In this document: piece by piece, positions 15,974 through 20,074 of the stretch
How the letters are laid out: each line of letters opens with the position of its first letter
Numbering within the stretch: the first letter of the stretch is position 1
Assembly (NCBI RefSeq): GCF_001511835.1
Contig: NZ_LN997848.1
Location: 1,550,001 to 1,614,000, forward strand
Direction of reading: 5' to 3'
Origin: Magnetospirillum sp. XM-1
GTDB taxonomy: Bacteria; Pseudomonadota; Alphaproteobacteria; Rhodospirillales; Magnetospirillaceae
Length of the DNA: 64,000 nucleotides
Translations under genes and position numbers: made by a program
The notes under the pieces: generated by a model
Seen by the model: the letters and a program-made list of their open reading frames with translations, nothing else
What the model was told of the DNA's origin: nothing
The model's database searches: none

Positions 15974-16047
15974 TGGGGGATCGTCTAACGGTAGGACAGC
16001 GGACTCTGACTCCGCCAGTCTAGGTTCGAATCCTAGTCCCCCAGCCA
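15974..16047 (+). tRNA. tRNA-Gln (anticodon CUG)
   Basis: The 7-bp acceptor stem TGGGGGA/TCCCCCA closes, the anticodon stem GCGGA/TCCGC holds loop CTCTGAC with anticodon CTG, and the T arm is CTAGG-TTCGAAT-CCTAG. Discriminator G and CCA are encoded. It reads CAG codons. A Tn7-like element is inserted 24 bp past its 3' end. Confidence 0.96.
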
Positions 16048-16071
16048 ACTCACCCGGCATTATGTAGCAAG

Positions 16072-16076
16072 CTCAC
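16072..16076 (+). repeat. Left target-site duplication CTCAC
   Basis: CTCAC directly precedes the left TGTCGG end of the transposon and is repeated immediately after the right CCGACA end at 20030-20034. A 5-bp duplication is the hallmark of Tn7/Tn5053-type transposition. Confidence 0.85.
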
Positions 16077-16120
16077 TGTCGGTTTCATCTATAGACCGGA
16101 TTTTGTACCTATAGTCCGGA
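16077..16120 (+). repeat. Transposon left end with two TnsB-type sites
   Basis: The terminus TGTCGG is followed by CTATAGACCGGA (16089-16100) and CTATAGTCCGGA (16109-16120), spaced 20 bp start to start. The same paired arrangement is found inverted at the right end. Confidence 0.75.
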
Positions 16121-16405
16121 CAGCGACAGGCATAACGCGGACGGATTCTGGCCCCGCCTCCCAGGCATTATCCTTGTAAGACAAGACGATAGGGCCGCCG
16201 ATCCGGTCCAGATGACGTTCGCATCGTGCCGCAGGCACATCATTGATGACGAACGTGCTTTCTCGGATTGGTCCGGCTTAAAGGGCTATCCGTTGGAGGC
16301 AGTCCCGCCCTCGTCTGCGCAGGCCGTTGAGTCCTCTCCTCCGCCCCCGGTTCGGGCCAATCGTGCTATGATCTTCGGCCTCCACTTCGGTTGGAGGCAG
16401 GGCCG
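16121..16405 (+). promoter_or_regulatory. Leader region of the tniQ-tnsA-tnsB operon
   Basis: There is no credible gene in this 285-bp leader. It holds a small inverted repeat CTTGT-AAG-ACAAG (16173-16185), possibly an operator, and an extended -10 promoter, TGC then TATGAT (16364-16372), about 34 bp before the tniQ start. The -35 match is poor. Confidence 0.45.
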
Positions 16406-17752
16406 ATGCGCGACGATGACCGCTGGCCAGGGCACCCCAGATTGCTGCCCGACGAGTCTGTATCTTCATGGTTCACCCGAACCGCTGCCGCCAACGGTCT
16501 GCGGCCGGGCGAGCTTTACCGCATTGTCCAGCCCGGCGGAGACCGTAATCCCCGCGATTTCGACCGCCATGCCGACGACTGCCTGCTGGACCTGTTGGCC
16601 GACAAGACGGGACTCCCGGTCGAAGGCCTGAAGCTCGCCACCTTTCGCCGCTGGTCCGGCCGGTTGTTCGAGCATGACGACGGCCTCAACAAGCTGGCAT
16701 GGCTGCCGCCGGCCGGGCGCGAGGGTGGCAGGCGCTGCTTTGGCCAGCAGATCTGCCCCTGGTGCCTGCGGGCGGATGCGCAGCCGTATTTGCGCCTCAA
16801 CTGGCGGCTCTCCTTCTTCACCACTTGTCCGATCCACGGACGCCTGCTGCTGGACCGCTGTCCCTCCTGTGCCGAGCCGTTCAGTATTCTACGCCAGGAC
16901 GGGCGCGGCGCCATCTGCTGCCCAGGCTGTGGCGCTGATCTCCGCGACTTGACCGGGGACGAGCCCGCCCTTGATACCGTCTCTGTACAGCGCGACCTGC
17001 TGGACTTGATCCGGGAGGGATGGCGGGACCTCGGCGAATATGGGCCGGTCTATTCCTTCGCGGTGTTCGAGCTGCTGGCAGTGATCACCCGCCTTCTCGC
17101 TGGTGGCAAGCACGCCTACGCACTCAGAACCAGGATCGCCGAGCATGAGGCAGGCCTGTCGGTGAGGCCCGAGGCCGTTCCCCGTGCCCGTGACGGTGCG
17201 CTACTGACTCCACGCGCCCGAGGCGTGCTGGTCGCCATGGCGCATTGGCTGATGGCGGACTGGCCGCACCGCTTCGTCGAGGCCGCCAAGGCGGCGGGCA
17301 TGGCCAGCACCGATCTGCGCAAGCGCCCCGTGGGCGAGTATCCCTTCGCCTACGCCCATGCCGTGGACTGGTACCTGAAGCAGCCGCACAAGGGCGACGC
17401 CACGGCAGAGATCATGGTGGCGGCCCAGGTGCTCCACGACCACGGCCAGTCGGCCAGCCACCGCAATCTTGTGGCCCTGTGCGGAACCAAGCTCGGCTCC
17501 ATGGGCGGAGTGGCCGAGCCCGTAGCCTCTGGCCTGCCCTGGGGCAAGGGTCGCTATTGGAAGCTGGATGGCGTTTCCCCCGAGGTGAAGGCCGCCGCCC
17601 GCCGGGCCGCGCATGGTGCCGGCGAAGACGTGGGGCCATGGCTGGATGCCCTGCTTCGCCGGACGCTTGGTCTTGGTGCCATCAAAACACCTTTTGATGG
17701 TCATGATCCCGACACAATCACGCCTGACGGTAACGTTGGTTGTGAAGAGTGA
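16406..17752 (+). CDS. tniQ: TniQ/TnsD-family transposon target-selection protein
   Basis: 448 residues. The N-terminus RWPGHPRLLPDESVSSWFTRTA is the canonical TniQ opening. Four zinc-ligand pairs follow: CPWC (117-120), CPIH (141-144), CPSC (152-155) and CPGC (172-175). The C-terminal 250 residues form an extended region as in TnsD rather than the short TniQ of CRISPR-associated elements. The ATG follows GGAGG-CAGGGCC; an in-frame TTG 15 bases upstream is less likely. TniQ/TnsD proteins pick the insertion site and recruit the AAA+ regulator TnsC. First gene of the operon, 13 bp before tnsA. Given the insertion point, the tRNA-Gln 3' end is its probable target (inference). Confidence 0.9.
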   Translation: MRDDDRWPGHPRLLPDESVSSWFTRTAAANGLRPGELYRIVQPGGDRNPRDFDRHADDCLLDLLADKTGLPVEGLKLATFRRWSGRLFEHDDGLNKLAWLPPAGREGGRRCFGQQICPWCLRADAQPYLRLNWRLSFFTTCPIHGRLLLDRCPSCAEPFSILRQDGRGAICCPGCGADLRDLTGDEPALDTVSVQRDLLDLIREGWRDLGEYGPVYSFAVFELLAVITRLLAGGKHAYALRTRIAEHEAGLSVRPEAVPRARDGALLTPRARGVLVAMAHWLMADWPHRFVEAAKAAGMASTDLRKRPVGEYPFAYAHAVDWYLKQPHKGDATAEIMVAAQVLHDHGQSASHRNLVALCGTKLGSMGGVAEPVASGLPWGKGRYWKLDGVSPEVKAAARRAAHGAGEDVGPWLDALLRRTLGLGAIKTPFDGHDPDTITPDGNVGCEE

Positions 17753-17765
17753 TGGGGGACACTCC

Positions 17766-18410
17766 ATGCCCGTGCGCAAAATCGGTCTTTGCTATCGCAG
17801 TGTCAGTGGGCGGGTGCCCATGGGACAGGGGGGCCCCGGCGTCCAGGTGGAATCGACCCTTGAGCGGGATTTCGCGCTGCTCTGCCGCTTCGATCCGTCC
17901 GTCGCCGGCATCGAGGAACAGCCGTTACGGATCGAATACGACGATGCCGACGGCCGTGCCCGCTCCTACGTGCCCGACTTCCTGGTGGCCTATCGCAGCG
18001 CTCGGTCCGTGCCCCGTCTGGTCGAGATCAAATATTCCACAGATCCCATGCTGATCTCCGGGCAACTGGACGGCCGCGCCTATGCTCGCCGCCATGGTTG
18101 GCGCTTCCAGGTGGTAACCGAGTTGGAAATCCGCACACCCCGGCTGGAGAACGCCACCTTCCTGCTGCCGTTCCGAGGCCGTCCCGTTGCGCCTGATCTG
18201 CGGGAGGCCTTGCGCTCGGCCCTGCGGGATGGTGGCCAGAAGAATGTCGCGTCGCTCGCCGACGAGATGGCCGTGGCGCTGGGCCTGAACCGGCCGGAGG
18301 TTCTGCCCGGCATTTGGACCATGGTGGCGGAGTTCAAGGTAATGACCGACCTGGATCGTCCCCTGACCATGAGCAGTCTCGTCGCACTGGCAAAGGAGAA
18401 GCGGTCATGA
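17766..18410 (+). CDS. tnsA: TnsA-type transposon endonuclease
   Basis: 214 residues. The opening MPVRKIGLCYRSVSGRVP and VESTLERDFALL are typical of TnsA N-terminal endonuclease domains. The restriction-enzyme-like catalytic set is visible: Glu29/Glu33, Asp71 in YVPDFLV, and Glu87-x-Lys89 in LVEIKY. TnsA cuts the non-transferred strand at the 5' ends so that the element moves by cut-and-paste. The start ATG has GGGGGA about eight bases upstream. The TGA overlaps the tnsB ATG (ATGA). The gene itself looks intact. Confidence 0.88.
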   Translation: MPVRKIGLCYRSVSGRVPMGQGGPGVQVESTLERDFALLCRFDPSVAGIEEQPLRIEYDDADGRARSYVPDFLVAYRSARSVPRLVEIKYSTDPMLISGQLDGRAYARRHGWRFQVVTELEIRTPRLENATFLLPFRGRPVAPDLREALRSALRDGGQKNVASLADEMAVALGLNRPEVLPGIWTMVAEFKVMTDLDRPLTMSSLVALAKEKRS

Positions 18411-18844
18411 ACAATGGCTTCAGCTTTCAGCCCGGCGCCTCCGTTCTCTGGCGCGGCAAGCGCTGCACCATCGTCGAGGCGGTGACGGCCTCCTCGGTCC
18501 TGCTCGACGTCGGGGATGGTCAGGACAAGAAAGTGGTGCCCGTCTCCAAGCTGCGTCCAATCAGGGATGCCGAAGCCGTTCAGGCCGACCGCAGCCTTGA
18601 CGCACTGGTTCCCGAAGATCTGGCCGAGGCCAAACGGCGCTTTGCTATCATCAAACCACTGGTGCGTTGCGAGCGTCGGCGGGAGAAGGACGTCCTTGGA
18701 ATCGCCGAGGCCAATGGAATCAGCCGAACGACGATCTATGACTGGATCAGGCTGTACGAAGGGCGGCGTCGGGTCAGCGATCTCGCGCCGAGGCGAAAGG
18801 GGCGCAAAATGCCCAAGCGCCTGTCGCCCGTGACCGAGGCGAAG
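18407..18844 (+). pseudogene. tnsB: tnsB transposase, truncated after 145 codons
   Basis: AAGGAG precedes the ATG, which overlaps the tnsA stop. Residues 1-145 match the N-terminus of TnsB/TniA-type DDE transposases: a small beta-domain, then a helix-turn-helix (GIAEANGISRTTIYDWIRLYEG, about 98-119) and the linker SDLAPRRKGRK..RLSP. Similarity stops after LSPVTEA, where IS3-derived sequence begins in opposite orientation. The catalytic domain (several hundred residues) is gone. By chance the frame stays open to 19741, so a gene caller would report a 444-residue chimera; only its first third is transposase. Confidence 0.82.
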
Positions 18845-19075
18845 AACTTTATGGTCATCGACCACGGCCAGGATGCGGAACCGTCGCCCGTCGCTGAACG
18901 CGTGGGAGGCAAAATCCAACGATCAGCGTTGGTTCGGCCCCATAGGGGGCGCCATCGGCGCCCACGTGCCCTGGGCACGCTTGCTGCCCGTGCGGCGAAC
19001 GGCGCCAGTTTTTCCTCCCGGTACAGCCGCAACAGCTTGTTGCGGCTGCGCTTCATTCGGCCGTCACCTGTCGTC
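18845..19075 (-). mobile_element. IS3-family (OrfB) fragment, degenerate
   Basis: On the minus strand the sequence reads KLLRLYREEKLA, then after a one-base frameshift VRRTGSKRAQGTWAPM..GPNQR, then a TGA where IS3-family transposases have Trp, then SLDFASHAFSDGRRFRILAVVDDH. This is the start of the IS3-family integrase domain (IS407-like). It stops at the tnsB junction near 18845-18852. Frameshift, nonsense codon and truncation show that it is dead. The outer boundary near 19075 is approximate. Confidence 0.75.
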
Positions 19076-19117
19076 GACGGACTCTACCTCAGGACGGATA
19101 CATTTTCGGGGAACAGG

Positions 19118-19564
19118 TCAAAGGCAGAACACTTTTCCGAAATGTCGGAGTGCATGCTTATAGCCACTGGCGTCAAACCGGTTGGTCGCCGACACCTGAA
19201 TCGCCAAGCCCCGACTATCCTTGAGTGCCCTGATAGATCGGCAGACTGCCGGGTCGTCGTCCAGCAGCACCCATGCTTTGACATCGACGTGATCTTTGAG
19301 CCATGCGGCCACGTCCTCGGCTTTTATCGAGAACTCACTTTGCTCGGGCAGACAGCAAAATGGCTTTGTTATTCCTTGGGCGATAAGCTCGCGGATGGTT
19401 TCTTCCGCACCGAGATGCCGCCGCCAAGACGAATGGACCACGATATCTGCTTGTGCATCACGGACCAGCTTGTTGACCCATTCGACGGCAGCCTGGTCAA
19501 AGCGGTCGGCGCCAGCCGGCAGCAGCACGTCATCAATGTCCAGAAAGACTACCGCTGCGGTCAT
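19118..19564 (-). CDS. HAD-like phosphatase, 'Swiss army knife RNA repair' type; transposon cargo
   Basis: 148 residues. VVFLDIDDVLLP gives the HAD DxD motif (D9, D11), IVVHSSWRR the motif II Ser region, and WVLLDDDPAV the acidic motif IV. The layout fits the small HAD domain found in SAK-type RNA repair proteins and in many mobile elements. The ATG has a weak GGTGAT upstream. It is the only complete non-transposition gene inside the Tn7-like element, so it is its surviving cargo. Substrate unknown; a role in nucleotide or RNA end processing is speculative. Confidence 0.72.
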   Translation of the reverse strand: MTAAVVFLDIDDVLLPAGADRFDQAAVEWVNKLVRDAQADIVVHSSWRRHLGAEETIRELIAQGITKPFCCLPEQSEFSIKAEDVAAWLKDHVDVKAWVLLDDDPAVCRSIRALKDSRGLAIQVSATNRFDASGYKHALRHFGKVFCL

Positions 19565-19909
19565 TACGTATCACCACGAAAGCCATCGCTCATTGGAGCT
19601 GCTAAGACCAAGCTGCGCTCTTCAAGACATCCGATTCTGATAGGCATAAATGGGGCTCCGCTTTGCGAAGCCGGGTGTTTGAAGGAGCCGCCCCTGGCGC
19701 CGGTTGGCCCTGGTCGGTGGCGGTCACATCCACACGGTTAGGCCATCCACGGGCACATGATACTCAGCCCTGTCCGATTAAAATCCGCACGTATTGACGA
19801 TCGCATAATCATCCAACCTATTGATAGCCTCCTTCTGAATTGCCTCATGCAGGCGTTACGTTGCTGGCCGATGCAAGGATTGTCCTCGTTCCAGTGTGAG
19901 CTGTGTCTG
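19565..19909. other. Non-coding or eroded interior of the transposon
   Basis: About 345 bp between the HAD cargo gene and the right-end repeats. All six frames are broken or lack family patterns. No trace of tnsC was recognised. Confidence 0.5.
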
Positions 19910-20029
19910 TCCGGTCAATAGGTTGTGTTTCCGGATATATCCGCCTTAAAGGCGCCGGGCAGTCAGGATTAAAGGTGCAAATTGCCGCCTCTCACTGGGT
20001 TTTCGTCCGATCCATCCTCAAATCCGACA
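19910..20029 (-). repeat. Transposon right end with three TnsB-type sites
   Basis: Read on the minus strand from the terminus at 20029: TGTCGG, then GGATGGATCGGA (20017-20006), and further in GATATATCCGGA (19941-19930) and CTATTGACCGGA (19921-19910). The inner two are spaced 20 bp, as at the left end. Confidence 0.72.
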
Positions 20030-20034
20030 CTCAC
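20030..20034 (+). repeat. Right target-site duplication CTCAC
   Basis: CTCAC immediately follows the right terminal CCGACA and matches 16072-16076. Confidence 0.85.
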
Positions 20035-20074
20035 CACGCCCCGGATGGCCAGCCGCTGCCATTTGCGGGCGAGA

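Follow-up and report, generated by a model that had tools for sequence, protein, structure and literature searches.

A Tn7-like transposon remnant behind tRNA-Gln(CTG) in Magnetospirillum sp. XM-1 and the apparent tRNA homing of its long-TniQ relatives

Tn7 carries several TnsB sites at each end. The parts of PMC2918618 considered here describe a CCCH zinc motif in its target selector, TnsD, that is required for binding. Integration beside tRNA genes has been reported for relatives of Tn7: in CyCAST, a type I-D CRISPR-associated transposon (CAST), TnsD directs insertion 30-33 nucleotides (nt) downstream of tRNA-Leu (PMC10293859, relevant parts), and Benler et al. (2021), who surveyed Tn7-like elements carrying defence cargo, mention integration downstream of tRNAs in the sections considered (PMC8649781). 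Here, we analyzed a stretch of 64,000 nt from Magnetospirillum sp. XM-1 (hereafter the window), which is part of a 4.83-Mb contig in a 4.99-Mb genome labelled G000; other genomes are labelled G and loci L. The window contains a Tn7-like element just past a tRNA-Gln(CTG) gene. Overall, we consider this element to be a decayed member of a Tn7-like branch, found here in alphaproteobacteria, in which no cas gene was seen and in which a long, TnsD-type TniQ directs insertion at a near-fixed distance past the tRNA 3′ end; we assign this reading a probability of roughly 0.88. In close kin, the insertion distance is about 28 nt past the tRNA 3′ end.

The element past tRNA-Gln(CTG) and its decay

The termini and the target duplication of the element were observed directly: TGTCGG starts at 16077, CCGACA closes at 20029, and in a 9-kb stretch of the window these were the sole pair of ends with a matching 5-bp duplication reported by the end-pair script. 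An earlier note on this DNA had named the same termini and the same CTCAC duplication, and both were borne out. That note also placed the insertion 24 bp past the tRNA, which is correct for the start of the duplication; the element itself starts 29 nt past the tRNA 3′ end at 16047. The features of the insertion site and of the element ends are as follows.

15974..16047, + strand: tRNA-Gln(CTG) gene, the presumed attachment site (ARAGORN)
16055..16076, + strand: edge of cassette X, CGGCATTATGTAGCAAGCTCAC, the DNA receiving the insertion; element-free in G023, G025 and G044
16072..16076, + strand: left copy of the target duplication CTCAC, 5 bp (sequence and script)
16077..20029, no strand: Tn7-like element, TGTCGG...CCGACA, 3,953 bp (end-pair script)
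16088..16100, + strand: left-end TnsB-type site 1, TCTATAGACCGGA (CCTTTAATCCGGA scan)
16108..16120, + strand: left-end TnsB-type site 2, CCTATAGTCCGGA (CCTTTAATCCGGA scan)
19910..19922, - strand: right-end TnsB-type site (CCTTTAATCCGGA scan)
19940..19952, - strand: right-end TnsB-type site (CCTTTAATCCGGA scan)
19963..19975, - strand: right-end TnsB-type site (CCTTTAATCCGGA scan)
20030..20034, + strand: right copy of the target duplication CTCAC (sequence and script)
20035..20067, + strand: right flank, cassette X continued as in empty sites; end approximate

Empty sites were also observed directly. In G023 and G025, the left flank is followed by one CTCAC and then by DNA with homology to the right flank of the window; over the first 20 bases beyond CTCAC, 18 match the window in G023 and 17 in G025. 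The empty site with a single CTCAC that the earlier note had predicted was thus found with both flanks, although neither genome displays the tRNA beside it. G044 holds tRNA-Gln, the same left flank and one CTCAC, and its right side has diverged. Cassette X itself is mobile-looking and starts with CGGCATTATGTAGCAAG; in some genomes it directly follows tRNA-Gln, and in others it is found in inverted orientation beside transposon ends (L080, L163, L165 and the window), and the one frame scanned gave no Pfam match. The same tRNA gene is also a site of islands: L107, L182, L074, L081 and L101 (in G037, G038, G039, G043 and G049) carry a gene for a tyrosine integrase shortly after tRNA-Gln(CTG) and split the tRNA in the anticodon region, leaving its 3′ half about 9-21 kb away.

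The end sites were scored with CCTTTAATCCGGA, a motif derived from relatives that gives a background of 0.2 matches per 200 nt at the same threshold. The left end has sites at offsets 12 and 32 and the right end at 55, 78 and 108, and the outer right-end site at offset 12 fell below the match threshold. Therefore, the ends are asymmetric rather than mirrored: of the outer sites at an offset of 12 bp that had been proposed for both ends, only the left one reached the threshold, and the right end does not have the proposed mirrored 20-bp spacing. On the left, the spacing of 12 and 32 recurs in L005, L007, the first of two elements in G039, and G041. TGT...ACA ends, a 5-bp duplication and several TnsB-type sites, a hallmark of Tn7-like elements, are all present in the window.

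The genes inside the element are the following.

16406..17752, + strand: tniQ, 448 residues, the presumed target selector (Pfam TniQ PF06527, 3.9e-32, 112 bits)
17766..18410, + strand: tnsA, 214 residues, endonuclease subunit (PF08722 1.4e-15 and PF08721 1.6e-9, both above cut-off)
18407..18842, + strand: 5′ fragment of tnsB, about 145 codons with a helix-turn-helix; the catalytic part is missing
18850..19037, - strand: presumed IS3-type transposase gene fragment, starting where tnsB breaks off
19118..19564, - strand: cargo gene for a HAD_SAK_2 domain protein, 148 residues (PF18143, 4e-19)

Both tniQ and tnsA are intact. The window TniQ is 91% identical to that of L004 and 89% identical to that of L005, and the ratio of nonsynonymous to synonymous substitutions (0.11-0.14 in three pairs) indicates purifying selection on tniQ. 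Its Pfam match agrees with the earlier description of a 448-residue TniQ with four pairs of zinc ligands, and these ligands (C117/C120, C141/H144, C152/C155 and C172/C175) are invariant across 10 aligned TniQ relatives. The DNA similarity of the window to L004, L005 and L006 ends at 18842, inside tnsB, and that to L007 already at 18175; no tnsC/TniB ATPase gene was found within the window element. In the proposed operon order tniQ-tnsA-tnsB, tnsB is only an N-terminal fragment, and the transposon described as having intact ends does have them but is itself not intact, with tnsB cut at about codon 145 and tnsC absent. Because most of tnsB and all of tnsC are missing, the window element is a remnant, a decayed copy that is probably immobile. 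G000 also holds a second, distant Tn7-like gene set (L029, G000:C1:2985000-3001000, with TnsA, TnsB, TniB and TniQ). Rescue in trans by a second TnsB/TnsC of the same genome seems unlikely, since the TnsB encoded at 2.995 Mb shares only 27-28% identity with that of L005 and the TnsB at 4.04 Mb gave no match. The fragment at 18850..19037, which we take to be of IS3 type from the look of its translation, is 86% identical to G000:C1:2440359-2440547 and had no Pfam or NCBIfam match. The HAD_SAK_2 cargo protein had no PADLOC match.

Location of related ends and elements

The fairest test of location was a search for two left-end types as DNA over 55 family genomes, with flanks ignored, which gave matches in 12 and 4 genomes. 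Ten of the 18 matches followed the 3′ end of tRNA-Gln(CTG) at 27-30 nt. Of this group, three (the window and the two query loci) were known beforehand, and four, in G037, G039, G041 and G049, had no more than the tRNA 3′ half in front of them. The chance level of TGTC[AG] is 0.0019 per position per strand, or about 0.8% for a given 4-nt slot, so that ten of 18 is beyond chance. One further match (L168) stood 26 nt behind a 17-nt tRNA tail, and three were in tandem, behind the right end of another element (L170, L173 and, with one base between, L175). One additional local BLAST row, in L164, was left outside the 18. The type-1 left end has one copy in its own genome, that of the window. Elements have thus inserted repeatedly at nearly the same distance from a tRNA 3′ end, a hallmark of tRNA homing that was directly observed here.

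Different and tandem insertions at one place, as well as relatives with the full tnsA-tnsB-tnsC set, were likewise observed directly. TniQ, TnsA, TnsB and TnsC were all matched in L004, in L006 and in the second element of G039; L005 has the same four genes, but its tnsB is, near the 3′ end, in another frame than that of L004. The L004 element (about 26.8 kb, target duplication CTCAC) encodes a TnsB that scores 36.2 bits for Mu-transpos_C, above the cut-off, and 31.4 bits for rve, just under the cut-off of 32.6, and a TnsC that scores 230 bits for TniB. L004 is thus a full element that follows the same tRNA at an equal distance, as the earlier note had anticipated. Its left and right end types both differ from those of the window element, yet the two insertions start at one and the same nucleotide, 29 nt beyond the tRNA. 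The presence of different end types at one identical nucleotide points to separate insertions. In addition, the right duplication copy of the L005 element (11,392 bp, duplication TTAGC) is immediately followed by another left end, and the first G039 element (9,410 bp, duplication CTTCT) is placed one base off, ahead of another element. These repeated and tandem insertions suggest that the insertion point is set by distance from the tRNA and not by the sequence that the element enters.

The opposite view, in which the element selects the CGGCATTATGTAGCAAGCTCAC motif where it inserts and the tRNA is only a bystander, is very improbable. Four motif-bearing genomes do carry an element in the motif, at CTCAC in G000, G045 and G041 and about two bases earlier in G024. 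However, the motif is absent from the occupied sites in G032, G037, G039, G046, G049 and G028, which have the tRNA in common, and it is unoccupied in G023, G025 and G044. Moreover, the 5 nt directly before the element vary between sites, and the insertion point therefore seems not to be chosen by its own sequence. What the occupied Gln-CTG sites share is the last 45 nt of the tRNA, common to 11 of 12 sites with one variable G/A position; the twelfth keeps only a 17-nt tail. Beyond these 45 nt, little is common to all. We infer from this pattern that the 3′ half of the tRNA is what is recognized.

The same association appeared when relatives were collected by TniQ. Each of these searches counts the own genome among its matches. 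At E <= 1e-20, 11 of the 55 family genomes had a match, and at E <= 1e-30, 5 of the 385 class genomes did. A profile search at E <= 1e-60 matched 19 of the 317 order genomes, and among the 398 phylum genomes there were 2 with a match. The tree holds 22 long TniQ rows (396 residues or more), of which 19 lie behind a tRNA and three have no tRNA in reach. Counted as loci, with tandem pairs counted once and with the addition of L024, whose frameshifted TniQ is outside the tree, 18 of 21 lie behind a tRNA: Gln-TTG at seven, Gln-CTG at six, Ser-GGA at four and Val-CAC at one. L027 (a broken TniQ on a 4.4-kb contig with no tRNA) is outside the tree and counted nowhere. Therefore, the long-TniQ clade appears to home to tRNA genes, and not only to tRNA-Gln. 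The earlier proposal of tRNA-Gln(CUG) as the attachment site is right about the tRNA link but not about its specificity; insertion of the same TniQ at unrelated sites, which would have contradicted the proposal, was not seen for any long-TniQ copy with a reachable tRNA side. Among 24 tRNA-linked ends, some of them remnants without tniQ, 22 lie 26-38 nt from the tRNA. All four genes are present at 12 of 16 distant long-TniQ loci; L024, L136 and L144 lack the full set and L140 is ambiguous. In G483, L142 and L143 are two tRNA-linked elements with sister TniQs (support 100/99), one at tRNA-Ser(GGA) and the other at tRNA-Gln(TTG), with the tniQ of L142 oriented opposite to tnsABC. This pair offers a natural system in which to find the TniQ residues that set target choice.

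Several observations weigh against tRNA homing as we read it. Among the 18 left-end matches, L163 and L165 have a spacer of about 30 nt followed by inverted cassette X, and their fetched flanks contain no tRNA; two others are away from any tRNA (L169, a 26-bp match, and L171, with a mutated TGTAGG end). Three of the 21 long-TniQ loci have no tRNA in the available upstream DNA (1.4-2.3 kb for L006 and L144, about 9 kb for L136). The ends of L037 and L148 are farther from the tRNA, at 65 and 67 nt, and a terminator-like hairpin lies in the interval. For the distant relatives, we located the end by inspecting the DNA directly beyond the tRNA, a partly circular procedure, and a partner end, where sought, was plausible only for L024 (duplication GGGCT, 6,871 bp); the gap between tniQ and tRNA is 0.1-13.5 kb, and the link rests on nearness and orientation. 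At L023 (G006:C107), the end facing the tRNA seems to be the one distant from tniQ, the reverse of the others, and its partner end was sought and not found. A structure prediction for TniQ (five rows) had a predicted local distance difference test score of 37 and was discarded. Separately, a duplication pair returned for L036 by the end-pair script lies inside its tnsB and was taken as chance.

No tRNA was found within the fetched 14-20 kb of the five short-TniQ rows (323-337 residues). Three of these loci, L025, L026 and L028 (G046:C58, G049:C73 and G045:C79), have a TniQ of 327-335 residues that lacks the C-terminal part, full or partial tnsABC, and one conserved site in common, beside a gene that we presume from its translation to be dxs. 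A target switch tied to the loss of the C-terminal part is possible. The TniQ of L147 may only seem short, having an internal stop within its match.

Putative mechanism and alternative routes to the tRNA

For the long-TniQ elements, we propose a putative mechanism. In Tn7, TniQ/TnsD binds the target, TnsC acts as a bridge, and TnsA and TnsB carry out cutting and joining. By homology, TniQ would bind the tRNA gene at the DNA level, in its 3′ half, and would then recruit TnsC. The TnsA/TnsB transposase, acting on the TGTCGG ends, would insert the element downstream with a 5-bp duplication and leave the tRNA intact. The reading of tRNA DNA by TniQ and the TnsC step are drawn from analogy with Tn7, and we infer protein-based targeting from the homology of TniQ together with the lack of any Cas gene seen.

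Targeting by a guide RNA would be the alternative at this step, with guides matching tRNA genes as in CASTs; type V-K CASTs are described as reaching tRNA sites in this way (PMC11406308, parts considered). For the present elements, we regard it as extremely improbable. The four main open reading frames of the window element had no Cas match in Pfam, in agreement with the earlier note, and 15 cargo proteins of relatives matched no Cas model among the PADLOC families listed, although no CRISPR-array search was made on relatives. Furthermore, the long TniQ is more like TnsD than like the short TniQ.

Alternatively, the tRNA link could be secondary, the transposon having been carried in by a tRNA-integrating island with a tyrosine integrase. 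An integrase gene starts within about 0.13 kb of the same tRNA-Gln in G039 (above the Pfam cut-off) and G049 (just below), similar genes occur in six further genomes, and the four occupied sites behind a tRNA 3′ half would suit such a history. However, the elements have transposon ends and a 5-bp duplication and lie at the same distance behind intact tRNA genes (the window, L004, L007, G046, G028 and G024), and no island integrase was found behind the transposons in the stretches searched. This explanation is very improbable.

A broader reading joins TniQ-directed homing with the islands. One TniQ clade would retain tRNA 3′ halves as its kind of target while changing the tRNA (Gln-CUG, Gln-UUG, Ser-GGA, Val-CAC). 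Islands that integrate into the same tRNA carry its 3′ half as their attachment site, and the point 28 nt past it would lie inside the island. With one selector, an element could thereby both settle safely in the chromosome and travel on mobile islands, which would reduce the two-pathway life of Tn7 to a single selector, and the side branch without the TniQ C-terminal part would have left the tRNA for the one site beside the presumed dxs. The range of targets, the tRNA common to islands and the presence of the short-TniQ branch elsewhere were seen; a transposon inside an island with the integrase behind was not found in the stretches searched. We speculate along these lines only tentatively and think this broader reading unlikely.

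Comparison with known systems

In the parts of the cited sources considered here, Tn7 resembles the window family in having TnsA, TnsB, TnsC and a TniQ/TnsD selector, in inserting downstream of a conserved gene and in its 5-bp duplication. Unlike in Tn7, where TnsD acts at glmS, the target here is a tRNA gene and tniQ is first in the operon. A comparison of the TniQ profile with the TnsD of PDB 8v32 gave similarity limited to the zinc region, at profile positions 115-181. Like the elements of Benler et al. (2021), the relatives described here carry defence cargo: Gabija in L004 (GajA and GajB, beside a JetD-like gene and a dGTPase) and in L024, a type II methylase with Vsr in L005, and a Dsr1 gene in the first G039 element (first 919 residues scanned). 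The sections of that survey considered here (PMC8649781) contain no account of tRNA-Gln or of the present lineage. In the literature searched, nothing combined TniQ with tRNA-Gln, or TniQ and tRNA with Tn7-like elements and alphaproteobacteria, and the sole match for Tn7-like elements with tRNA-Ser concerns, in the part considered, Thaumarchaeota; the tRNA-site list of Hsieh and Peters (2022) may cover related targets.

Further close parallels are CAST I-D (CyCAST) and CAST I-B2 (PmcCAST), in which, as far as the parts considered describe, a large TnsD directs insertion downstream of tRNA-Leu or tRNA-Val; here, 22 of the 24 tRNA-linked ends lie at 26-38 nt. According to the same parts (PMC11406308, PMC10293859), these CASTs have a fused TnsAB, CRISPR-Cas and a second TniQ. 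In contrast, the window element and L004 each have tnsA and tnsB as separate genes, and no cas gene was found among the four window reading frames or, in the PADLOC families listed, for the 15 cargo proteins of relatives. The target tRNAs also differ, being Gln, Ser and Val here (Val-CAC at one locus) and Leu or Val in the CASTs. If confirmed, such a system might provide a small protein-only tool for safe-site insertion. Homing to tRNA genes is already known from other Tn7 relatives; the present elements add a branch in which TnsA and TnsB are separate proteins, no cas gene was seen, and the target tRNAs are others.

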